Shown here in pieces: positions 39,899 through 63,092 of a stretch of 64,000 nt of DNA. Position 1 is the first letter of the stretch; each line of letters opens with the position of its first letter. This DNA comes from an uncultured Paracoccaceae bacterium (GTDB taxonomy: Bacteria > Pseudomonadota > Alphaproteobacteria > Rhodobacterales > Rhodobacteraceae), in assembly GCA_947492825.1 (NCBI GenBank), contig CANLNT010000001.1, positions 2,232,001 through 2,296,000 on the forward strand, written 5' to 3'. Under the pieces are notes generated by a model. The model was not told the origin of the DNA, did no database searches, and saw only the letters and a list, made by a program, of their open reading frames with translations. The translations under genes were made by a program, and so were the position numbers.

Positions 39899-40678
39899 TC
39901 ACACGACGCGTTCGACCAGCTTTTTCTTGATGTCGGCAATTGCTGCAGCCGGGTTCAGCCCCTTGGGGCAGGTCTTGGCGCAGTTCATGATCGTGTGACA
40001 GCGATAGAGCTTGAACGGATCTTCCAGATCGTCCAACCGCTCGCCTGTCGCCTCATCCCGGCTGTCTACGATCCAGCGGTGCGCCGCCAACAGGGCTGCT
40101 GGCCCCAGATAGCGGTCACCATTCCACCAATAGGACGGGCAGGATGTGGAACAACAGGCGCACATCACGCATTCATACCCACCATCGAGCTTTTTGCGGT
40201 CTTCAATCGACTGCTTCCACTCTTTCGCGGGCGTGTTGGTCTTGGTTTCCAGCCACGGCATGATGCTGGCGTGCTGGGCATAAAAGTGGGTCAGATCCGG
40301 GATCAGATCCTTGACCACGGGCATGTGTGGCAGCGGATAGATCTTCACATCGCCCTGCACCTCATCAAGGCCATAGATACAGGCCAGCGTGTTGATCCCG
40401 TCGATGTTCATCGCACAAGACCCGCAAATGCCTTCGCGGCAGGACCGGCGGAAAGTCAGCGTCGGATCAATCTCGTTCTTGATCTTGATCAGCGCATCCA
40501 GAATCATCGGCCCACAGGTGTCGAGATCGACGAAATAGGTGTCCAGCGACGGGTTCTTTCCGTCATCTGGGTTCCAGCGATAAATCTGGACCTTTTTGAC
40601 GTTGGTCGCACCCTCGGGCTTGGGCCAGGTCTTGCCGGTGACCATACGAGAATTCTTGGGAAGCGTCAGTTGAACCAT
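39899..40678 (-). CDS. sdhB: Succinate dehydrogenase iron-sulfur subunit
   Basis: A 259-residue subunit of complex II that passes electrons from FAD to quinone. It contains the [2Fe-2S] ligands in [15 protein letters not shown]...C, the [4Fe-4S] set in [11 protein letters not shown], and the [3Fe-4S] set in [12 protein letters not shown]. It is the last gene of the sdh operon, but three small genes separate it from sdhA. Confidence 0.97.
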
Positions 40679-41269: not shown

Positions 41270-41686
41270 CTATCGCCCCGTACAATATTGCGACCCGCCA
41301 TAAATTACCGACGCACCTGCGGGACAGGAGGCAGACCGGGGTTGCGCGACCGGCGTCCGCACCCGGGCCGCCGGGCTTAACCCGCCAGAGACTTCGGTCA
41401 CGGGTGTCGCAACGGCAGGAAGTCGGGATGCCGCGCAGTCGTTGATCCGGTCAGCCAGGCCTTGCGACAAACGCTCGGTGGGCACAATCACAACGCTTGC
41501 GCGCTGGGTGCCGCCAGAGAGTTCGACCCGCGCACGGGTTTGGATCGGGAAGATTGCATCGCCCTGCTCTTTGGCGCAGGCGAATATCGCGTCTTCCTGT
41601 GCCTTCACGGTTGGACCGACGACCGTTGCCGCGCAGCCCGATAGCGCAAGAGCGGCGGCCGAAAAAACAAGACTTGCGGACCGCAT
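41270..41686 (-). CDS. Small lipoprotein directly after sdhA
   Basis: A 138-residue protein with a lipobox (LALSGC) near residue 18 and four further Cys. The central part DAIFACAKEQGDAIFPIQTR, then VVIVPTERLSQGLADRINDC, gives way to a Pro- and Ala-rich tail ending SCPAGASVIYGGSQYC. No domain is recognised. The ATG overlaps the sdhA stop (TGATG), so it is translationally coupled to sdhA. Confidence 0.77.
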   Translation of the reverse strand: MRSASLVFSAAALALSGCAATVVGPTVKAQEDAIFACAKEQGDAIFPIQTRARVELSGGTQRASVVIVPTERLSQGLADRINDCAASRLPAVATPVTEVSGGLSPAARVRTPVAQPRSASCPAGASVIYGGSQYCTGR

Positions 41687-43491
41687 CAATAAACCCTCGC
41701 CTTTGGCGCGATCTTCTTAAGGTCAATCCCGCCCTCGTCCTGCGTTGTCAGCGGGTCCAGATGCACGGGGCGATAGCTGAGCGTTGTCTTGGCACCGTCG
41801 ACATTCGCCAGCGAATGCACCCGCCACTTTTTGTCATCGCGGTCGGGGTAATCCTCGTGCGCGTGGGCGCCACGGCTTTCCTTGCGCGCCTCGGCGCCAA
41901 CAATCGTCGCCAGCGCGTTGGGCATCAGGTTGCCCATTTCCAGCGTTTCCATCAGGTCAGAGTTCCAGACCAGCGACCGGTCGGTGACTTTCAGATCGCC
42001 CATCTTGCCGGCGATGGCTTCCATCTTTTTCACACCCTCGGCCAGCGTCTTGTCGGTGCGGAAGACGGCGGCGTCTTCTTGCATTGCCTTTTGCATCTCA
42101 AGCCGCAGTTCCGCGGTCGGGGTGGCCCCATCGGCGTGGCGCACATTGTCGAAACGGTCAAAGGCTTGATCGACCGAGGCCTGATTCAGCACAGGGTTTG
42201 CTGCATTGGGGTCCACAACCTCACCTGCCTTGATCGCGGCGGCACGGCCAAAGACCACAAGGTCGATCAGGCTGTTTGACCCCAGACGGTTCGCGCCGTG
42301 GACGGATGCGCAACCCGCTTCGCCCACGGCCATCAGGCCGAGCACAACCGCATCGGGGTTATCCTTGGTCGGGTTCAGCACCTCACCCCAGTAATTCGTG
42401 GGGATACCGCCCATGTTATAGTGCACGGTGGGCAACACAGGGATCGGTTCCTTGGTCAGGTCCACGCCTGCAAAGATGCGCGCGCTTTCTGAGATACCGG
42501 GCAGACGCAGATCAAGCGTCTCGGGCGGCAGGTGGTTGAGGTGCAGGTGGATGTGATCGCCCTGCGGCCCGACCCCGCGGCCCTCGCGGATTTCCATTGT
42601 CATACAGCGCGACACCACATCGCGCGACGCCAGATCCTTGTAGGTCGGTGCATAGCGTTCCATGAAACGCTCACCTTCGGAGTTGGTCAGATAGCCGCCT
42701 TCGCCCCGCGCCCCTTCTGTAATCAGGCAACCTGCGCCATAGATACCAGTCGGGTGGAATTGCACAAACTCCATATCTTGCAGGGGCAAGCCTTGGCGGG
42801 CGACCATGCCGCCACCGTCGCCGGTGCAAGTGTGGGCGCTGGTGGCAGAGAAATAGGCGCGGCCATAGCCGCCGGTCGCCAGAACGGTCGTCTTGGCGTT
42901 GAAGACATGCATGGTGCCGTCATCAAGTTTCCACGCGACCACACCCTGACATTGCCCGTCTTCGGACATGATCAGATCGGTGGCGAAATATTCGATGTAA
43001 AACTCGGCCTTTTGTTTCAGGCTTTGGCCATACAGCGTGTGCAGGATCGCGTGGCCGGTGCGGTCGGCGGCAGCGCAGGTGCGCTGCACAGGCGGGCCTT
43101 CGCCAAATTCGGTGGTGTGGCCGCCAAATGGGCGCTGATAGATGTTACCCTCTTCGGTGCGGGAAAACGGCACGCCGTAATGTTCCAGCTCATAAACCGC
43201 CTTGGGCGCTTCGCGGGCGAGGTATTCCATCGCATCGGTATCACCCAGCCAGTCCGACCCCTTGACGGTGTCATACATGTGCCACTGCCAGCTGTCGGGG
43301 CCCATGTTGCCGAGCGAGGCGGCGATACCGCCCTGGGCGGCAACGGTGTGCGACCGGGTCGGAAAGACCTTGGTGATACAGGCGGTTTTCAGACCCTGTT
43401 CAGCAAGGCCCAATGTGGCGCGCAAACCGGCACCCCCAGCACCCACCACAATGGCGTCATAGACATGCGTTTCGTATTCGTAAGCGGCCAT
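41686..43491 (-). CDS. sdhA: Succinate dehydrogenase flavoprotein subunit
   Basis: A 601-residue FAD subunit that oxidises succinate to fumarate. It contains the dinucleotide motif [20 protein letters not shown], the flavinylated His in [13 protein letters not shown], the active-site region [10 protein letters not shown] and the C-terminal RPVHLDPLT. The length is normal. It lies 18 bases after sdhD. Confidence 0.98.
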
Positions 43492-43509: not shown

Positions 43510-43881
43510 TTAAAGGGCGAGGCGCACGACGGCGAAAACACCGGCGGCGGCTGCAGCATAGGACAGGCAAATCATGCCGATGATGGCGGCCTTGCGGGCA
43601 AAGCCGTGTACGTAATCCTCGATCAAGGTCTGCACGCCACCGCGAAAGTGATAGAAGCCCACGAAGATTGTCAGCCCGGCAATGATCGCAGGCACAGGCC
43701 GCTGGTAATAGGCGACCACTTCTTCATAGGGTTGGCCCAGCACAGCGCCGAAGGTGAACATGAAGGCGATTACCAGCGGCACAAGGGCCACGGATGTCAC
43801 CATCATTTTCCAGTGATGATCTGTCCCCGTCTTGGCAGAGCCCATACCAGCGGCGCGTTTGCGGTCGGTCAAATAAGCCAT
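43510..43881 (-). CDS. sdhD: Succinate dehydrogenase membrane anchor subunit
   Basis: A 123-residue anchor with three hydrophobic helices. GSAKTGTDHHWKMMVTS begins the first, VGFYHFRGGVQTLIEDYVHG carries the haem/quinone-region His, and the last helix ends VRLAL. Together with SdhC it binds haem b and ubiquinone. It follows sdhC by nine bases. Confidence 0.93.
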   Translation of the reverse strand: MAYLTDRKRAAGMGSAKTGTDHHWKMMVTSVALVPLVIAFMFTFGAVLGQPYEEVVAYYQRPVPAIIAGLTIFVGFYHFRGGVQTLIEDYVHGFARKAAIIGMICLSYAAAAAGVFAVVRLAL

Positions 43882-43890
43882 GCGGACCCC

Positions 43891-44274
43891 CTAGACGACG
43901 ATTGCAGTAAAGATGGTCAGCAGAACGCTGGCGATGATGGCGGCCTGTGCATAAGTCTCTGACCGTTTGACATCGAGCATATGGCCGCTGTCCCAGATCA
44001 GGTGACGCACGCCAAACAGCAGGTGATACCAGACTGCCCAGACCGACAGGAACATGACCAGATCGCCAAACCAGCTGGTGACAAAGCCATTGGCAGCGGC
44101 AAAAGCATCCGGCCCGGTCGCGGCGGCCACGAACCACCAAACGATCATCAGGGCCGCCACAATTAGGGCGTTGCCCGTGAGGCGCGTAAAGATCGAGGTC
44201 ATGGAGGTCAGTTGCGGACGATAGATCGTCAGATGCGGCGAAAGAGGGCGATTGCCCCGGTTCACATCGGCCAT
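43891..44274 (-). CDS. sdhC: Succinate dehydrogenase cytochrome b556 subunit
   Basis: A 127-residue subunit with the family start RPLSPHLTIYRPQLTSMTSI, including the quinone-site Ser and Arg, three membrane helices and the haem-ligand region WYHLLFGVRHLIWDSGH. The ATG with AAGAAGGGA seven bases upstream was chosen over a longer reading. First gene of the operon; the upstream region holds the paired TGTGATCACA boxes. Confidence 0.96.
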   Translation of the reverse strand: MADVNRGNRPLSPHLTIYRPQLTSMTSIFTRLTGNALIVAALMIVWWFVAAATGPDAFAAANGFVTSWFGDLVMFLSVWAVWYHLLFGVRHLIWDSGHMLDVKRSETYAQAAIIASVLLTIFTAIVV

Positions 44275-44390
44275 TTCAGTTCCCTTCTTGGCGTCACGCG
44301 GGCTGGCTGGCCCGCGCCTTTGGACCGTTATTGCGCATCTCTTTCCCAGAGTCACGTAAACGGGGTGCTAAAATCCGCGCGAAAATGCCG

Positions 44391-44443
44391 CGTTAGCGCA
44401 AAAAGTCGCAGATGTGATCACAGTTGCAAAAGGTGTGATCACA
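44391..44443 (-). promoter_or_regulatory. Paired TGTGATCACA boxes plus GCGCTAACG upstream of sdhC
   Basis: Two exact TGTGATCACA palindromes (44413-44422 and 44434-44443) start 21 bases apart. GCGCTAACG (minus strand) follows 13 bases closer to sdhC. The same set precedes sucC. Two turns of helix between boxes suggests cooperative binding of two dimers on one DNA face. The pair ends 139 bases before the sdhC start, and the second box also lies just after the end of the neighbouring peptidase gene. Confidence 0.7.
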
Positions 44444-53802: not shown

Positions 53803-54504
53803 TCAAGCGTGCTGTTTGCGCCGCTTGGCCAGACCAAGGGCACCAAGCCCCGCCAGAAGCAGCGGCAGACCGGCAGGCAGCGGGATTTGACCGACGATGT
53901 TGGGGTCAGGCTCTGCTTTCACAGACGACAGGTAAAACTCCTGCGCGCCAGTTCCGCCATAGGCAAGCGTCAGACTGTCAATTCCAAACAGCGGGATGTT
54001 GGACAGTGCGCCAAACGAGGTTTCTGACAGCCCGCCGCCGTTGATACCGATCAACAGTGTGTCCAGCGAGGTCGAGCTGATCAGCGAATGGTTCGCGGCA
54101 CGGAACACGAAATCGCTGAGGATCATTGTGACGTCAAACGCGATGGTCACAAATTCGTTCGCGGTCACGTTGTCGTCGCTGCCAGGATTACACTGGTTTT
54201 CCTTGCCGGTCCCACCCACGGTGTTGATCGCAAATGGCGTCGTGCAGACACCCAGGCCCGCGTTCCCGTGATCGAGATAGGCATAAGCGTCATTCGCAAC
54301 CGGTGTGCCGTAGTTGGTCTGAAGACCACCTGACACGGTCACGTTCAAAAGGCTGGTGTTCACAGAGTTCAGAACGGTGCCATCTGACAGCGCCTGCTCG
54401 TTGAAATCAGCTTCGGCTTGAAAGTTGATGCTGACCGGAGCTGCGACCGCTGAGGTCGCAAAAAATGCAGCGCTGATCGCAGCTGCAGTGAATAGCTTCT
54501 TCAT
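53803..54504 (-). CDS. VPLPA-CTERM-type sorted extracellular protein
   Basis: A 233-residue protein with a signal peptide (ATSAVA-AP, about residue 22) and a C-terminal sorting signal IPLPAGLPLLLAGLGALGLA followed by KRRK: a Pro-rich motif, a hydrophobic helix and a basic end, as recognised by exosortase-type transpeptidases. The middle is a low-complexity, Ser/Thr/Asn-rich beta domain. GAGGAG precedes the ATG. The exosortase gene is not in the window. It is transcribed away from sucC. Confidence 0.85.
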   Translation of the reverse strand: MKKLFTAAAISAAFFATSAVAAPVSINFQAEADFNEQALSDGTVLNSVNTSLLNVTVSGGLQTNYGTPVANDAYAYLDHGNAGLGVCTTPFAINTVGGTGKENQCNPGSDDNVTANEFVTIAFDVTMILSDFVFRAANHSLISSTSLDTLLIGINGGGLSETSFGALSNIPLFGIDSLTLAYGGTGAQEFYLSSVKAEPDPNIVGQIPLPAGLPLLLAGLGALGLAKRRKQHA

Positions 54505-54756
54505 TCCAATCTCCTCGTTAAGGCCGCGAAATTGCACGGCAGACATCTTTTTACCGGTTCATGGTTAACACAGTTTCGGCCAAAAGTCGCCATGAATTGG
54601 CCCCATTTTGGCCGGTTCTGGCCTGAGACCAGCGGCCAGAGGGTCAAGAACCGCTTAAAGTCACGAGTGTCACGCAGGATTTACACATCTTGAGACACGG
54701 CTTGTCCCGATGTCGAATCGCCTGATTCAACCGCAAATCATGGTTTGAGTTTTATT

Positions 54757-54819
54757 TGTGATCACACTTTTTCTGGCTGTGATCACAAATGTCCGATTTT
54801 TGGCCCGTTCGCGCTAACG
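54757..54819 (+). promoter_or_regulatory. Paired TGTGATCACA boxes plus GCGCTAACG upstream of sucC
   Basis: Boxes at 54757-54766 and 54778-54787 start 21 bases apart, exactly as before sdhC. GCGCTAACG follows 23 bases after the second box, ten bases further than in sdh, which keeps it on the same helical face. They lie 97-127 bases before the sucC ATG. The 379-base gap 54505-54883 that contains them has no gene. Confidence 0.7.
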
Positions 54820-54883: not shown

Positions 54884-56077
54884 ATGAACATCCACGAATA
54901 TCAGGCCAAGGCACTCTTGAAGTCTTTTGGCGCACCGGTCAGCGACGGACGCCCGGTTCTGCGCGCCGAAGAGGCCAAGACAGCCGCTGGCGAACTTGAT
55001 GGCCCGCTTTGGGTGGTCAAGGCGCAGATCCACGCTGGTGGTCGCGGCAAGGGCAAGTTCAAAGAGGCTGACGCCGGCGATGCAGGCGGTGTGCGTCTGA
55101 CAAAATCCGTGGAAGAGGCCGCACAGGAAGCGAAAAAGATGCTGGGCCGCACCTTGGTCACGCATCAGACCGGTCCCGCAGGCAAGCAGGTGAACCGCAT
55201 CTATATCGAAGACGGTTCCGGCATCGAGACAGAGATGTATCTGGCCCTGCTGGTTGACCGCCAAACCAGCCGCATCGGTTTTGTCTGCTCGACCGAGGGT
55301 GGGATGGACATCGAAGAGGTCGCAGCCTCGACGCCTGAAAAGATCCTGAATTTTACCGTTGACCCCGCCACCGGTTATCAGCCCTACCACGGCCGCCGCG
55401 TGGCCTTTGCGCTGGGGCTGGAAGGACAGCAGGTCAAGCAATGCGTCAAGCTGATGGGCATCCTTTATAATGCCTTTGTGTCCAAAGACATGGAGATGCT
55501 GGAGATCAACCCGCTGATCGTCACCGATGGCGGCGATCTGAAAGTGCTGGACGCCAAGGTGTCTTTCGATGGCAACGCCGTCTACCGCCATCAGGACGTC
55601 GCCGCCCTGCGTGACGAGACAGAGGAAGACCCCAAGGAACTTGCCGCGTCGAAGTATGACCTCAACTATATCGCGCTGGACGGGGAAATCGGCTGCATGG
55701 TCAATGGCGCGGGTCTGGCGATGGCGACGATGGACATCATCAAGCTTTACGGTGCCGAGCCTGCCAACTTCCTCGACGTGGGCGGCGGTGCGACCAAGGA
55801 AAAGGTGACAGAGGCGTTTAAGATCATCACCTCTGACCCGAACGTCAAAGGCATTCTGGTGAACATCTTCGGCGGCATCATGCGCTGCGACGTGATCGCC
55901 GAAGGCGTCGTTGCCGCCGTGAAAGAGGTGGGGCTGAAGGTGCCGCTGGTGGTCCGGTTGGAAGGCACAAACGTGGAAGCCGGAAAAGACATCATCAACA
56001 ATTCGGATGTCGACGTGATCGCCGCTGACGACCTCAAGGACGGTGCCCAGAAGATCGTGAAAGCGGTCAAGGGGTAA
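54884..56077 (+). CDS. sucC: Succinate--CoA ligase, ADP-forming, beta subunit
   Basis: A 397-residue subunit, the standard length. The start [19 protein letters not shown] is diagnostic. The ATP-grasp part carries [16 protein letters not shown], the metal site is [10 protein letters not shown], and the C-terminal CoA-ligase fold has NFLDVGGGA and [12 protein letters not shown]. It converts succinyl-CoA to succinate with substrate-level ATP formation. Unusually, four other genes and about 2.5 kb separate it from its partner sucD. Confidence 0.98.
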
Positions 56078-56081
56078 GTCT

Positions 56082-56768
56082 GTGTTTTGGCGGTTGACCA
56101 CTGTTGTATCCCTGTACACCTGTTCGGCTTGCGGGGCGGTTTCCGACAATGGAAACCGACCGACCCATCAGGAGCGGATCGCAGACGCGTGGACCTCAGA
56201 ACTTCCATTTGTGGAAGCCGGTAGAGCCGCCAGCGCAGAATTTGCAGTCGCGACGTTCTTTGATGCATGTGTATTGAACGCGGGTGACGACCAAGGCACA
56301 AAACGTGCGTTTGAGGCGCGCGGCTTTGATATCGTCAGAAACGATAGGGAGATTAGTGCTGGCGATTTTCGCATGGTTTCCACAAACTATAGAACGCCCC
56401 AAATCGATCACCCGCGCGTCTTCTTCGGCATCACCAGTTTCACAGACATCAGTCCAAGCACCTTTTGGGTCTGTGAGGTCAGCTTAGACCTTTCAAACCC
56501 AGAAGCCCTTACGGCAGACTTGATCGTTCAAATGGCGCCGCAAGCGTGGCAACATGTAGAGCCAAAAAGCGATAGGTCCGGTCGACTTGTCAGCCCGGCT
56601 AATCTGAAAGGCGGTTCCTATTTTATTCGACTTCCCAGCCTTGATCTCCATGACACACCAGATCGAGCAAAACATGGTGGCTGCGGTGATCTTGACGCGT
56701 GCAAATCTTGGTCGATGGCAAAATTTAGTTTCAGTGTTTTGCCTGAAATGGCAGGCAGTGCATCATGA
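56082..56768 (+). CDS. Unknown lipoprotein-like protein inserted after sucC
   Basis: A 228-residue protein starting with GTG four bases after the sucC stop, with AAGGGG at suitable distance. The N-terminus is hydrophobic and ends in TCSAC, a plausible lipobox. The body has [34 protein letters not shown] and [12 protein letters not shown] recognise no family. Its bases are visibly more A+T-rich than those of sucC and sucD, which may mark later acquisition. Confidence 0.72.
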
Positions 56769-56936
56769 TTGTGGAAGTTTCAAACGTAAATGCGAGCAAT
56801 GTGCGTCTTTGCGGTCCGAAATCTGCCGCGCCCCTAAAAGATCACATTTTAGACAAATCGAAGCTTCATCCCGCTGACAGACAGGCAGCAACGGCCGGAG
56901 AACCGGTCTTTGCACCTGATCTGAGGGGATTGAGTT

Positions 56937-57140
56937 ATGAAAAAGATTGCACTGCCGCTGTTCATGGCTGCCACGCTAAGCGCCTGTATGGGCACCAGCC
57001 AGCCGGTCGCCGTGGCCCAGACAGAGGTTATCTCGACCTCTGGCGCCAGCGCGGCCTGCCCCAGCATCCATATGCGGACCACAAACGGCCTGCCGATGCG
57101 CTGCGGACCGCAGACGATGAAGCCTTACACCTTCCAGTAA
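56937..57140 (+). CDS. Small lipoprotein A with NGLPMRCGPQ motif
   Basis: A 67-residue protein: MKKIALPLFMAATLSAC is a lipoprotein signal with Cys17. A short linker leads to ACPSIHMRTTNGLPMRCGPQ and a terminal PYTFQ. GAGGGG precedes the ATG. The C-terminal motif recurs in the next gene. Two Cys in the mature part could form a small disulfide loop. Function unknown. Confidence 0.78.
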   Translation: MKKIALPLFMAATLSACMGTSQPVAVAQTEVISTSGASAACPSIHMRTTNGLPMRCGPQTMKPYTFQ

Positions 57141-57156
57141 GGCCACGAACACAACC

Positions 57157-57175
57157 GGCAGCGCCCGGCGCTGCC
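57157..57175 (+). terminator. Hairpin after small lipoprotein A
   Basis: GGCAGCG and CGCTGCC with a 5-base loop, followed by TTG. It may cause partial termination inside the split suc operon. Confidence 0.35.
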
Positions 57176-57359
57176 TTGATTGGCAAAGACCTGCCCAGAC
57201 GTGCCTTAACGTCTCGGCAAGGCTTTGCCTTGCTTTTGCCTTACGGCTTTCATCATGTCGCCAACCGGATCAGCGATGCATCAGGCATCGCAAACGCGTC
57301 CGCTGGCCTGTTCTGGGGGGCAGGACGCCCTGATACCGAACAGTCAAAGGACCAAGACC

Positions 57360-57548
57360 ATGATGAAATACGCCGCTCTCGCCACCATCGCACTGACACT
57401 CTCGGGTTGCCTGGAAAGCAGCAATGGCGCCTCTGTCGCACGGCTCGACACGCTGTCAGCCAGCTGCGGCAGCCCGCACATGCAGACCATGAACGGCCTG
57501 CCGATGCGTTGCGGCCCGCAGGTCGCATCGCCCTATACGTTCCAGTAA
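57360..57548 (+). CDS. Small lipoprotein B with NGLPMRCGPQ motif
   Basis: A 62-residue protein: MMKYAALATIALTLSGC is a lipoprotein signal. The C-terminal part reads SCGSPHMQTMNGLPMRCGPQ and again ends PYTFQ, so it is a paralogue of the gene before it. AAAGGA lies upstream. A start at the second Met is equally possible. Function unknown. Confidence 0.77.
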   Translation: MMKYAALATIALTLSGCLESSNGASVARLDTLSASCGSPHMQTMNGLPMRCGPQVASPYTFQ

Positions 57549-57609
57549 GAGACCCACAGCAGGCCGCGCCACGTGGCGGGGCCTGCGCGCGCACCTGTGA
57601 GGTGCGCAC

Positions 57610-58602
57610 ATGAAGGCAGTTGTCCATATTGGCCTGCCCAAGGCGGGCAGCAGCACGCTTCAGGATTTTCTACATCAAAATGCCGATGCTCTGGACAAGC
57701 AGGGCTTTTGCTATCGTCGTTTTGACCCCGCGGACATGTGTCAGCGCGAATATCTGTCGGTTGTGTTTCAGGCGACAGGGCGAAATTTCGACGATCCTGT
57801 CCAATCCGTTGCTGCCAAGATGCGCACCCGCGCGGACGTCGCGGCTCGGGCAGATGCGCTGGACCACTGGATTGATGCCGAAGTGGCGCGCACCGACGCC
57901 GATGTCTGGCTCATCTCGAACGAGTTTTTATCGTCGGTTGTTATGCGATTTGATGGTCAGGCCGCGATCCATGATTGGCTGACGTCGCGTTTTGATCATG
58001 TCCGCTACGTGATTTACCTGCGCAGTCAGGACAGCTGGGCCGTCAGCATGTATTCCCAAAAGCTGCGCGATGGATTCACCGATGCATTTCCGGCGTTCCT
58101 GTCCCAGACCAAGCCACGTGACTACGCGAAATTGGCAAACCATTGGGCGCAACTCGCAGGCACCGAAAATCTGTCCGTGCGGTTGCTGGACCGCAGCGCG
58201 CTGGATCAGGGTGATCTGATCTTGGACTTCTGTTCCCTTGTTGGCATTGATGCCAATGGGTTGGCGCGCCCCGCCCCGCGCAACACCAGCTATACCCGCC
58301 GATGCGCCGATGCAGTGCGGACGCTGAATAGCGCGGTCGGACGGGTCTTGCCACGTCAAAGCCCGCTGAGCCGCGCCATCAGAAAGGCCGGGCGCACCGT
58401 CGCAGAAGCGACGTTGAACACCGGCGCACCGATCACCCTGACACCCACCCAGCGCGAGGCCCTGCTTGGTCCCGTCGCCAAATCCAATGAAGCGTTGCGC
58501 AAACGGTGGTTTGCGGAACGTCCCACACTTTTTGACCCCACGCCTTCACAACCCGCGCATGCAGCGCCTGCACCAGCAGACCCTGCACGCGTACACATGT
58601 AA
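57610..58602 (+). CDS. Sulfotransferase-fold protein
   Basis: A 330-residue protein with a sulfotransferase-like PAPS-binding loop VVHIGLPKAGSSTLQDFLHQ at the N-terminus and the 3'-phosphate segment VIYLRSQDSWAVSMYSQ near residue 140. The C-terminus is a Pro/Ala-rich tail. Such enzymes sulfate sugars or small molecules; the acceptor is unknown. Located between small lipoprotein B and sucD, probably in the suc transcript. Confidence 0.78.
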   Translation: MKAVVHIGLPKAGSSTLQDFLHQNADALDKQGFCYRRFDPADMCQREYLSVVFQATGRNFDDPVQSVAAKMRTRADVAARADALDHWIDAEVARTDADVWLISNEFLSSVVMRFDGQAAIHDWLTSRFDHVRYVIYLRSQDSWAVSMYSQKLRDGFTDAFPAFLSQTKPRDYAKLANHWAQLAGTENLSVRLLDRSALDQGDLILDFCSLVGIDANGLARPAPRNTSYTRRCADAVRTLNSAVGRVLPRQSPLSRAIRKAGRTVAEATLNTGAPITLTPTQREALLGPVAKSNEALRKRWFAERPTLFDPTPSQPAHAAPAPADPARVHM

Positions 58603-58649: not shown

Positions 58650-59531
58650 ATGGCCATCCTCGTCGACAAACATACCAAAGTGATCTGCCAGGGCCTGACC
58701 GGCTCTCAGGGCACGTTCCACTCTGAACAAGCCATTGCCTATGGCACCCAGATGGTGGGTGGCGTGACCCCCGGTAAGGGCGGACAGACCCACCTTGACC
58801 TGCCGATCTTCAACTCGGTCCACGAAGCCAAGGCCAAGACCGCAGCTGATGCCTCTGTCATCTATGTCCCGCCCCCCTTTGCAGCCGATTCGATCCTTGA
58901 GGCGATTGACGCCGAGATGGAGCTGATCATCTGCATCACCGAAGGGATTCCGGTGCTGGACATGATGCGGGTCAAGCGCGCGCTGGAAGGGTCTGCATCC
59001 CGCTTGATCGGTCCCAACTGCCCCGGCATCATCACGCCCGACGCCTGCAAGATCGGCATTATGCCCGGCCACATCCATAAGCGCGGGTCGGTGGGCGTTG
59101 TGTCCCGCTCCGGCACGCTGACCTATGAGGCGGTCAAGCAGACATCCGACAGCGGGTTGGGTCAGTCCACCGCCGTGGGCATCGGCGGCGACCCGATCAA
59201 GGGGACAGAGCATATCGACGTGCTGGATATGTTCCTGGACGATGATGAAACCCATTCGATGATCATGATCGGCGAAATCGGTGGCTCGGCCGAGGAAGAA
59301 GCCGCCGAATTCCTGACCGAACAGAAGAAAAAGGGCCGCTGGAAACCGGTTGCCGGTTTCATCGCAGGCCGCACCGCCCCTCCGGGCCGCCGCATGGGCC
59401 ATGCCGGCGCGATTGTCGCGGGCGGCAAGGGTGATGCGGAAAGCAAGATCGAAGCGATGAAATCCGCTGGAATCGTGGTCGCCGACAGCCCCGCAACGCT
59501 GGGCGAGGCCGTGCTTGAGGCAATCGGCTAA
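58650..59531 (+). CDS. sucD: Succinate--CoA ligase, ADP-forming, alpha subunit
   Basis: A 293-residue subunit of standard length. The N-terminal [19 protein letters not shown] binds CoA, and the phosphorylated His lies in [29 protein letters not shown] and [14 protein letters not shown] are conserved. AAGGGAACGCC precedes the ATG. It forms a heterotetramer with SucC. Confidence 0.98.
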
Positions 59532-59652: not shown

Positions 59653-60141
59653 ATGGGGCCGATCGCCGCCATCAGGACCGGCTTTGCCAAGTCGTTCCAG
59701 TTTGAGGGCCGCGCCACGCCGTCCGAGTTCTGGTGGTTTGCGGCGTTTGCTGCGCTCCCGGTCTATCTTGTTGCCACTTGGCTCGTCCAACCATGGGACA
59801 GGCGCTCGTATTCCTTGTCGGAGAAAATGCTTGAAGTCGGATGGTTGGGCGCTCTGATTTGTCCATTAGTGTGTTTCATACTCATGCTTTCTCTTGGAAT
59901 GCGAAGATACCGCGATGTCGACGTCCCGGTATTTCTCTGGCCAGTACTCATCGCGATAGCTGCCTGCCCGATCGTCTACGCCATAGTCGTGCCCGACATC
60001 TTCTATCACCCAAACCAAGCCTTCGTTGTTGCAATAATTCTATGCCCCATCGTGCTGCTTTGCGCGTTTCTCATCCCGCTAGGGCCTACCAACAGTCGTC
60101 TCCTTCCTGAGAGTTCCGACGCAAATGAGGTTCCCAAATGA
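59653..60141 (+). CDS. DUF805 membrane protein
   Basis: A 162-residue membrane protein with four hydrophobic segments and the DUF805 start FEGRATPSEFWWFAAFAALP. LGMRRYRDVDVP fits the family loop. Its middle part is more A+T-rich than the flanking suc genes. It overlaps the sucA start by ATGA and is therefore coupled to it. Function unknown. Confidence 0.85.
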   Translation: MGPIAAIRTGFAKSFQFEGRATPSEFWWFAAFAALPVYLVATWLVQPWDRRSYSLSEKMLEVGWLGALICPLVCFILMLSLGMRRYRDVDVPVFLWPVLIAIAACPIVYAIVVPDIFYHPNQAFVVAIILCPIVLLCAFLIPLGPTNSRLLPESSDANEVPK

Positions 60142-63092
60142 CCGACCATTCCCCCAACGACGTCTTTCACGCCTCTTCCTTCATGCAGGGGCATAATGCG
60201 GAATATGTGGAACAGCTTTATGCCCGCTATGCCGATAACCCCGGTGCGGTGGATGAAAGCTGGCAGGCGTTCTTCCGCTCCCTCGGTGACGCGCCCGCAG
60301 ACGCCAAGGCAGAGGCCGCAGGGCCAAGCTGGGCGCGCCATGACTGGCCGCCGGTCCCGAATGACGACCTGACCGCAGCGCTGGACGGCCAATGGCCTGC
60401 TGAACCCGCAGCGGCCGGGGACAAGATCAAGGCGAAGGCCGCCGAAAAGGGCGTGACGCTGGATGAATCCCAGGTCCGTGCCGCCGTGCTCGACAGTATC
60501 CGCGCGCTGATGATTATTCGTGCTTACCGGATCCGGGGCCACCTGATTGCTGATCTCGACCCGCTGGGGATGCGTGAAAACGTCCCACACCCGGAACTGG
60601 ACCCGGCGAACTACGGCTTCTCCAAGTCAGACATGGATCGCCCGATCTTTATCGACAACGTGCTTGGCCTCGAAGTGGCCACCATGAATGAGATCATGGC
60701 GATTGTGAAACGCACCTATTGCGGCACTTTCGCGCTGCAATACATGCACATCTCGAACCCCGAAGAGGCGGGCTGGCTGAAAGAGCGGATTGAAGGCTAC
60801 GGCAAGGAAATCAGCTTTACCACAAACGGCCGCAAGGCGATCCTGAACAGCCTTGTGCAGGCCGAGGGTTTTGAGAAATTCCTGCACGTCAAATATATGG
60901 GCACCAAGCGTTTCGGCCTTGACGGGGGCGAGGCGCTGATCCCGGCCATGGAACAGATCATCAAACGCGGCGGGCAGCTCGGGCTTGAGGATATCGTCAT
61001 CGGGATGCCGCACCGGGGCCGCCTGTCGGTGCTCGCTAATGTGATGGAAAAACCCTATCGCGCGATCTTTAACGAATTTCAGGGCGGTAGCTTTAAGCCC
61101 GAAGATGTCGATGGTTCGGGCGATGTGAAGTACCACCTTGGTGCCTCATCTGACCGCAGCTTTGATGACAACACCGTGCATCTGTCGCTGACGGCAAACC
61201 CCAGCCACCTTGAGGCGGTGAACCCTGTTGTGCTGGGCAAAGTACGCGCCAAGCAGGACCAGCTGAAGGACGAGGATCGCACCCGCGTCATGGGCATTCT
61301 GCTGCATGGGGATGCGGCTTTTGCAGGGCAAGGCGTTGTGGCCGAAGGGTTCGGTCTGTCGGGGCTGAAAGGTCACAAGACCGGCGGCACGATGCATATC
61401 GTGGTGAACAACCAGATCGGATTTACCACCGCGCCGCATTTCAGCCGCTCGTCGCCCTATCCCACCGACATCGCGCTGATGGTTGAAGCCCCAATTTTCC
61501 ACGTCAACGGTGACGACCCAGAGGCGGTCGTGCACGCCGCCCGAGTGGCCACCGAATTCCGCCAGAAGTTCCACAAGGACGTGGTGCTGGATATCATCTG
61601 TTACCGCCGCTTTGGTCACAACGAAGGCGATGAGCCGATGTTCACCAACCCGGTGATGTACAAGAAGATCAAGACCCACAAGACAACGCTGACGCTTTAT
61701 ACAGAACGGCTTGTCCGCGACGGTTTGATCCCCGAGGGCGAGATCGAGGATATGAAAGCCGCTTTCCAATCCTATCTGAACGAGGAATTCGAGACCGGTA
61801 AAAATTATAAGCCCAATAAGGCCGACTGGCTGGACGGGCGCTGGTCGCATCTGGACAAGAATGACGCCGACTATCAGCGCGGCCAGACCGCGATCAAGCC
61901 GGAGACAATGGATCAAATCGGCAAGGCGCTGACGGCGGCACCGGATGATTTCAATATCCACCGCACCGTTTCGCGCCTGTTGGACACCAAGAAGACAATG
62001 TTCGAGACCGGCGAGGGCTTTGACTGGGCCACCGGCGAGGCTTTGGCCTTTGGTTCGCTTGCCGTCGAAGGCTACCCGGTGCGCCTGTCGGGTCAGGATT
62101 GTACGCGCGGCACCTTTAGCCACCGCCACTCTGCCCTGATCAATCAGGACACCGAAGAACGGTACTACCCGCTTAACAACATCCGCGAGGGCCAGGCGCA
62201 GTACGAAGTCATCGACTCGATGTTGTCGGAATACGCTGTGCTGGGCTTTGAATACGGCTATTCGTTGGCCGAACCCAATGCGCTGGTGATGTGGGAGGCG
62301 CAGTTTGGCGATTTTGCCAATGGTGCGCAGATCATGTTCGACCAGTTCATCAGCTCTGGCGAAAGCAAATGGTTGCGGATGTCGGGCCTCGTCTGCCTGC
62401 TGCCGCATGGCTACGAAGGTCAAGGGCCTGAACATTCCAGCGCGCGCCTAGAACGGTTCCTGACGATGTGCGGTGGTGACAACTGGATCGTCGCAAATTG
62501 CACCACGCCTGCGAATTATTTCCACATCCTGCGCCGTCAGGTGCATCGCGACTTCCGCAAGCCGCTGATCCTGATGACGCCAAAGTCGCTGTTGCGCCAC
62601 AAGATGGCCGTCAGCCGGGCCGAGGAATTCCAGACTGGCAGCTCGTTCCACCGGGTGCTGTGGGATGATGCCCAGCAGGGCAATTCTGACCTGACGCTCA
62701 AGCCCGACGACAAGATCAAGCGCGTCGTGATGTGTTCCGGCAAGGTCTACTTTGACCTGTTGGAAAAGCGCGATGAGATGGGGCTGGATGACACCTATAT
62801 CATGCGGTTCGAGCAGTTCTATCCCTTCCCCGCGCAATCGGCGGTGAACGAATTGCAGCGTTTCAAGAATGCCGAAATGGTCTGGTGCCAGGAAGAGCCC
62901 AAGAACCAGGGCGCGTGGTCGTTCATGGAACCCAATATCGAATGGGTCCTGACCCGGATCAAAGCCAAACATTCACGGCCTGCCTATGCCGGTCGCGCCG
63001 CCGCTGCCAGCCCCGCCACGGGGCTTGCCAGCCAGCACAAAGCCCAACAAGCAGCACTCGTCGCAGACGCGCTGAATATCAAAGGAAACTAA
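60138..63092 (+). CDS. sucA: 2-Oxoglutarate dehydrogenase E1 component
   Basis: A 984-residue thiamine-diphosphate enzyme that decarboxylates 2-oxoglutarate and reductively succinylates the lipoyl group of SucB. It contains the short N-terminal E2-binding segment YVEQLYARYADNPGAVDESW, the THDP/Mg region (IGMPHRGRLSVLANV, GDAAFAGQGVVAEG), RRFGHNEGDEP and the C-terminal TPKSLLRHKMA and EEPKNQGAW. Full length. It ends three bases before sucB. Confidence 0.98.
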   Translation: MTDHSPNDVFHASSFMQGHNAEYVEQLYARYADNPGAVDESWQAFFRSLGDAPADAKAEAAGPSWARHDWPPVPNDDLTAALDGQWPAEPAAAGDKIKAKAAEKGVTLDESQVRAAVLDSIRALMIIRAYRIRGHLIADLDPLGMRENVPHPELDPANYGFSKSDMDRPIFIDNVLGLEVATMNEIMAIVKRTYCGTFALQYMHISNPEEAGWLKERIEGYGKEISFTTNGRKAILNSLVQAEGFEKFLHVKYMGTKRFGLDGGEALIPAMEQIIKRGGQLGLEDIVIGMPHRGRLSVLANVMEKPYRAIFNEFQGGSFKPEDVDGSGDVKYHLGASSDRSFDDNTVHLSLTANPSHLEAVNPVVLGKVRAKQDQLKDEDRTRVMGILLHGDAAFAGQGVVAEGFGLSGLKGHKTGGTMHIVVNNQIGFTTAPHFSRSSPYPTDIALMVEAPIFHVNGDDPEAVVHAARVATEFRQKFHKDVVLDIICYRRFGHNEGDEPMFTNPVMYKKIKTHKTTLTLYTERLVRDGLIPEGEIEDMKAAFQSYLNEEFETGKNYKPNKADWLDGRWSHLDKNDADYQRGQTAIKPETMDQIGKALTAAPDDFNIHRTVSRLLDTKKTMFETGEGFDWATGEALAFGSLAVEGYPVRLSGQDCTRGTFSHRHSALINQDTEERYYPLNNIREGQAQYEVIDSMLSEYAVLGFEYGYSLAEPNALVMWEAQFGDFANGAQIMFDQFISSGESKWLRMSGLVCLLPHGYEGQGPEHSSARLERFLTMCGGDNWIVANCTTPANYFHILRRQVHRDFRKPLILMTPKSLLRHKMAVSRAEEFQTGSSFHRVLWDDAQQGNSDLTLKPDDKIKRVVMCSGKVYFDLLEKRDEMGLDDTYIMRFEQFYPFPAQSAVNELQRFKNAEMVWCQEEPKNQGAWSFMEPNIEWVLTRIKAKHSRPAYAGRAAAASPATGLASQHKAQQAALVADALNIKGN

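Follow-up and report, generated by a model that had tools for sequence, protein, structure and literature searches.

The window, i.e., the whole stretch of 64,000 nucleotides that was analysed, contains two operons for TCA enzymes. The sdh genes are placed on the minus strand and comprise sdhC (43891..44274; PF01127 and TIGR02970, the ATG at 44274 being preferred to a longer GTG ORF), sdhD (43510..43881; PF01127 and TIGR02968), sdhA (41686..43491; TIGR01816) and sdhB (39899..40678; PF13085). On the plus strand are located sucC (54884..56077; PF08442 and PF00549, with its ATG at 54884), sucD (58650..59531; PF02629 and PF00549) and sucA, the gene for 2-oxoglutarate dehydrogenase E1 (60138..63092; PF16078, PF00676 and PF16870).

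The interval between sucC and sucD (56082-58602) is occupied by three tightly packed ORFs at 56082-56768, 56765-57613 and 57610-58602, and none of the three had a Pfam match at E 0.001. The last of them resembles a sulfotransferase by eye, and the second may not be a gene. In both Cereibacter-group relatives discussed below, sucC adjoins sucD directly. A gene for a DUF805 protein is found between sucD and sucA (59653-60141). The gene at 53803-54546, divergent from sucC and sharing its upstream region, is a borderline PEP-CTERM case, its 20.6 bits falling just under the cut-off of 20.7.

Each operon is preceded by two exact copies of TGTGATCACA, arranged as TGTGATCACA-N11-TGTGATCACA. Upstream of sdhC (44413-44443, minus strand), the outer putative AkgR box is located at 44434..44443 and the inner one at 44413..44422. 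Upstream of sucC (54757-54787, plus strand), the respective boxes are located at 54757..54766 and 54778..54787. The boxes start 21 bp apart both times; the tandem palindromes of identical 21-bp geometry that the first-pass annotation had reported at the two genes were thus located as exact copies at both. At up to one mismatch, the 10-mer occurs nine times in the window, whereas 100 shuffles averaged 1.74 occurrences and always stayed below nine. In the complete genome (4,008,873 bases), the pair at ≤3 mismatches is restricted to these two places, and the reversed-pattern control gave no match. Exact single copies of TGTGATCACA amount to nine genome-wide: four make up the two pairs, four lie within long ORFs, and one precedes a GntR gene. 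The latter is the sole copy outside both the pairs and the long ORFs.

In CRP and FNR sites, a spacer separates the two half sites (TGTGA N6 TCACA or TTGAT N4 ATCAA). In TGTGATCACA, TGTGA abuts TCACA with the spacer absent, at sdhC and sucC alike, and therefore a CRP or FNR site is ruled out. The earlier description of a GntR-like operator pair at TCA operons, of neither CRP nor FNR form, is supported.

The GntR gene and its counterparts

The GntR ORF encodes 215 aa (C1:2298834-2299481) and lies 2.8 kb past the right edge of the window, 12.7 kb away from the sucC pair. It is located behind lpd, on the opposite strand, and its single exact TGTGATCACA (C1:2299489-2299498) lies 7 nt ahead of the ATG. 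The protein contains PF00392 (GntR HTH) and PF07729 (FCD), both above their cut-offs. The closest solved structure by sequence is McbR of E. coli (4p9f, E 2.4e-17), the nearest FCD-GntR protein of known structure and a distant one. The targets of McbR differ from those of AkgR.

AkgR is a GntR regulator that we take to be RSP_0981, and its regulon in Rhodobacter sphaeroides was reportedly described by Imam, Noguera and Donohue in mBio in 2015. In passages of PMC4344238, the GntR protein RSP_0981 is a predicted regulator of succinyl-CoA synthetase (sucCD), succinate dehydrogenase (sdh) and the alpha-ketoglutarate dehydrogenase complex. AkgR sites include GTGATCAC, and AkgR is termed an activator, in passages of PMC6365646. 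The GTGATCAC palindrome, the mark of an AkgR operator, is exact at both the sdh and the suc operon of the window.

R. sphaeroides is absent from the 80 loci of the named scan, and the comparison with RSP_0981 was made via two of its sister species, Cereibacter johrii and Luteovulum azotoformans, whose cytochrome b stretches match the query at 95% and 91% identity, respectively. Their orthologues share 71-74% identity with the protein of the window genome. In both species, the gene order is akgR, sdhBADC, mdh, sucC, sucD, sucA, which fits the numbers RSP_0981, 0974-6, 0968, 0967-6 and 0965-62 given in passages of PMC4344238, and the pair is found upstream of sdhC and upstream of sucC alike. The 10 named genomes obtained from the 80 loci all contain the orthologue (70-77% identity, the other matches listed being ≤39% identical). 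All of them also have at least one pair at ≤3 mismatches, i.e., two pairs in seven genomes and one only in three. From this identity, and from the synteny with the sister species, we infer orthology to RSP_0981. The reader of the paired palindromes, which the first-pass annotation had called unknown, is very probably the orthologue of AkgR, a regulator already described in R. sphaeroides.

Third element and promoter layout

Three elements were originally reported to recur before both operons in one common geometry. All three are present at both, as GCGCTAACG is found exactly in only two places of the window, each beside a pair (5 of 100 shuffles gave at least two copies). The common geometry does not extend to this element, since its gap to the pair is 13 nt at sdhC (44391..44399, minus strand) versus 23 nt at sucC (54811..54819, plus strand). 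Few relatives share it. In the 60 nt on the downstream side of the pair, an exact GCGCTAAC was found in 2 of 16 sdhC and 3 of 44 sucC promoters, counts that include the two promoters of the window, against a mean of 0.04 for each set (about 0.08 together) in mononucleotide shuffles. In the 60 nt upstream of the pair, the respective counts were 2 of 16 and 0 of 44. The occurrence of GCGCTAAC near the pairs is above chance yet sporadic, with 55 of the 60 promoters missing it downstream of the pair. Because of the unequal spacing and this scarcity in relatives, the third element was rejected as a fixed and conserved part of the layout.

A possible reader of GCGCTAACG is CceR, a LacI regulator which we take to be RSP_1663 and which presumably is also GapR. 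It differs from AkgR in family and motif, and both operons could be under the joint control of the two proteins. The site form of RSP_1663 is the inverted repeat GTT N6-8 AAC, and sdh is among its predicted targets (passages of PMC4344238). GapR is a LacI regulator of central carbon metabolism in Rhodobacteraceae, with mdh among its targets (passages of PMC4052901). The sucC copy of GCGCTAACG forms GTTCGCGCTAAC, which conforms to the inverted repeat, whereas the sdhC copy, a possible half site, has TTT where GTT is expected. According to passages of PMC11323563, the CceR regulon includes the TCA enzymes in R. sphaeroides but not in Paracoccus denitrificans. Among the 17 LacI matches of the window genome, none was pinned as the CceR orthologue, and a search for CceR-like palindromes around these 17 gave one match, beside L098, and no clear candidate. 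Joint control, which would add to the AkgR explanation and not replace it, is favored by the position of both exact GCGCTAACG copies next to pairs and by the excess of GCGCTAAC over the shuffles, and is weakened by the absence of GCGCTAAC from most promoters. On balance, it is a real possibility that falls slightly short of even.

The inferred -35 element of sdhC is GTGACT (44350..44355, minus strand), 57 nt past the pair. A GTGAC[AT] motif was found 35-80 nt past the pair in 40 of 47 sdhC promoters, while the remaining seven had none within 80 nt. Its spacing is 56-59 nt in 34 of the 40; the other six, at 46, 47, 68, 69, 77 and 79 nt, depart from this by about one or two helical turns. With the phase taken at 10.5 bp, R is 0.89 for the distance from the pair to GTGAC[AT] and 0.20 for that from the pair to the ATG, a Rayleigh signal that comes mostly from the common 56-59 nt spacing and whose value is not a true probability because related genera do not supply independent promoters; the phase argument is carried by the six departures. 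Alignments of the sucC and sdhC promoters contained few conserved columns beyond the boxes and the start-codon region. A scan with the sigma-70 consensus upstream of sdhC gave no match. The sucC promoters offered no -35 element that could be relied on, and helix phase is claimed for sdhC alone. The pair seems to be in helix phase with the putative -35 element of sdhC. Such a phase would be required of an activator that has to face RNA polymerase, and activation is the mode that we infer.

In the mechanism proposed here, each TGTGATCACA would be the binding site for one dimer of AkgR, the FCD domain being its ligand-binding part. Boxes 21 bp apart, or 20 bp in some genera, correspond to two helical turns and would place two dimers on one face of the DNA, where binding across the paired boxes may be cooperative. 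From a position upstream of the -35 region, the two dimers would activate sdhCDAB and the sucC operon.

Many FCD-GntR proteins are generally known as repressors, and AkgR on the pair might repress sdhC and sucC instead of activating them. This is unlikely, as the pair lies upstream of the presumed -35 element at a helix-phased distance and AkgR is an activator by the wording of PMC6365646, in the passages cited above.

Conservation and placing of the pair

The family sample, presumably of Rhodobacteraceae to judge by the named relatives, consisted of 198 genomes, no two of which share a genus label. The GntR protein was matched with E ≤1e-20 in 184 of them, and the pair at ≤2 mismatches was present in 163, with no match of the reversed control. 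This conservation, together with the shuffles of the window, bears out the initial judgement that chance recurrence of the boxes is very unlikely. The pair is present in 160 of 177 genomes with the orthologue versus 3 of 21 without it, a split that was set post hoc and whose Fisher value is not a true probability, related genera not being independent. The 21 genomes consist of 14 with no match and seven with an E value between 1e-44 and 1e-20; G033 and G122 (about 1e-56 to 1e-58) were counted with the orthologue. The three genomes with a pair and no clear orthologue are G019, G096 (77% complete) and G114.

In the 35 family genomes that lack the 21-bp pair at ≤2 mismatches, two exact copies of GTGATCAC with a gap of 3-33 nt were found in 14 of 17 orthologue-bearing genomes and in none of the 18 that lack the orthologue. 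The 25 pairs from this search had a period of 20 bp in 14 cases, 21 bp in three and other values in eight. A 20- or 21-bp pair is carried by 12 of these 17 orthologue-bearing genomes.

The class-wide sample of 385 genomes had a 20- or 21-bp pair in all five members of the same family and in 2 of the 380 others. G281 was the sole genome of this sample with matches of the reversed control (five, with none of the actual pattern). When 190 class genomes were searched with the protein, matches with E ≤1e-30 and at least 76% identity came solely from the three members of the same family in this set, and the best one elsewhere was 41% identical.

The pair might be read by some other regulator, e.g., another GntR protein or a relative of CRP or FNR, the AkgR orthologue being a mere neighbor with a similar box. 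The 22 GntR matches in the window genome and the three genomes with a pair and no clear orthologue are in its favor, as is the possibility that related FCD-GntR proteins share the GTGATCAC half site (passages of PMC6365646). Nevertheless, the pair and the orthologue co-occur, a box is found at akgR itself, and the motif and targets of AkgR in passages of PMC6365646 and PMC4344238 match those of the window. In addition, the unspaced TGTGA/TCACA fits neither CRP nor FNR. Another reader is, on this evidence, very unlikely, and the AkgR orthologue is retained.

The genes downstream of the pair were searched by tblastn at 118 pair-bearing loci. These gave 109 distinct upstream sequences, 61 belonging to sucC, 47 to sdhC and one to sucA. 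Two exact boxes were found in 106 of them and one in three; the periods of the former, 21 bp in 92 and 20 bp in 14, are biased towards 21 because most loci were fetched for holding the pair. In one genus (L082 1501-1531; G177:C4), the pair is directly ahead of sucA, with an mdh-like ORF on the other side and no sucC between.

Seven loci remained with no tblastn assignment. In one genus, L270 (602-630; G042:C16) has a third pair, ahead of an ORF that resembles fumarase C by eye, a further TCA gene. At L274, the pair lies within an ORF named by eye as transaldolase-like. Two loci with other spacings, L235 and L236, have it inside ORFs, and in a third, L242, two convergent ORFs end on either side of it. 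The remaining two are from outside the family. At L249, the pair is inside an ORF (by eye). At L248 (992-1020; G354:C189), a 21-bp GTGATCAC pair is ahead of an ORF that looks GntR-like, with a secreted-protein-like ORF on the opposite strand (both by eye), and a relative of AkgR outside the family may use the same pair. The examined 20- and 21-bp pairs of the family are located at TCA genes, with L274 as the sole exception.

Neither scatter over many unrelated genes nor lack of conservation, either of which would have spoken against the first-pass annotation, was seen. A chance or generic repeat with no regulatory role has a negligible probability and was rejected: GATC-centered palindromes do arise by chance and four of the nine exact singles are within ORFs, but the pair is restricted to two places of the genome, is conserved in the family against a reversed control of zero, and is found, complete or as one exact box, at sucC, sdhC or sucA in the 109 upstream sequences.

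The box at akgR and the probable AkgR regulon in the family

The akgR loci numbered 77, of which 67 were from the top ranks of the family matches (a first 30, then 37 ranked below them) and 10 from the named genomes, so that the sample covers the closer akgR genes. In 57 of the 77, the 150 nt preceding the start codon contain an exact box, and 45 of these 57 boxes start 17-23 nt ahead of the codon. As controls, the gene bodies had no such box in any of the 77 genes, and the downstream regions had one in 2 of 77. The 20 akgR genes with no exact upstream box include both of the Cereibacter group. This is an indication that self-control is common, not universal. In the window genome, the single box ahead of the start codon suggests that akgR probably represses itself.

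Taken as a whole, the AkgR explanation, i.e., predicted dimer sites, paired activation of sdhCDAB and the sucC operon, and probable self-repression, is highly probable. The sites, their conservation, their near-exclusive placing at TCA genes, the co-occurrence with the orthologue, the sdhC phase and the akgR box come from the present analysis, and cooperative binding, activation in this organism and autorepression would be read from them. In a more general form, the output may be set by the number and place of the boxes: a phased pair would act as a two-dimer activation platform at TCA promoters and a single box at akgR as negative feedback, with a layout kept across most sampled genera of one family and spread to sucA and fumC in single genera. 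For this general form, the arguments for and against are about evenly poised.

Apart from the sdhC phase and the box at akgR, the system is a known one, very probably the AkgR regulon as found in a further genus of the family. Common to it and the R. sphaeroides regulon are the GTGATCAC motif and a GntR regulator (passages of PMC6365646), the predicted RSP_0981 targets sdh, sucCD and alpha-ketoglutarate dehydrogenase (passages of PMC4344238), and the suc/sdh neighborhood shared by the two sister species. In contrast to the Cereibacter group, akgR is here behind lpd and not near sdhB, and it has its own box, which the Cereibacter-group genes lack. The PS417_07240-type GntR protein of the Pseudomonas simiae deoxyribonate cluster is alike in its GTGATCAC palindrome and 32% identical to AkgR, but it has a single palindrome upstream of a catabolic cluster and acts on other genes (passages of PMC6365646). 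CceR (RSP_1663)/GapR is alike as a central-carbon regulator with a predicted action on sdh (passages of PMC4344238 and PMC4052901) and an inverted repeat that the sucC element fits, and different in that the element is sporadic in relatives.

The paired layout is not described in the passages of PMC11323563, PMC6365646, PMC4344238, PMC4419725, PMC5507952, PMC4052901 and PMC5343134, a set to which the primary AkgR paper does not belong. What may be new is the two-turn pair, its phase with the presumed -35 element of sdhC, the fact that most sampled genera have it at TCA genes, and its difference from the lone box of akgR.

With these results, the seemingly unknown regulator of a TCA switch can be named, at the strength stated above. 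AkgR-type control of sdh and suc would extend throughout the family, in a strictly kept layout. Activation is less common than repression among FCD-GntR proteins, and the 20- or 21-bp pair, with its helix phase to the presumed -35 element of sdhC, would offer a clean test case for activation by this group of regulators.
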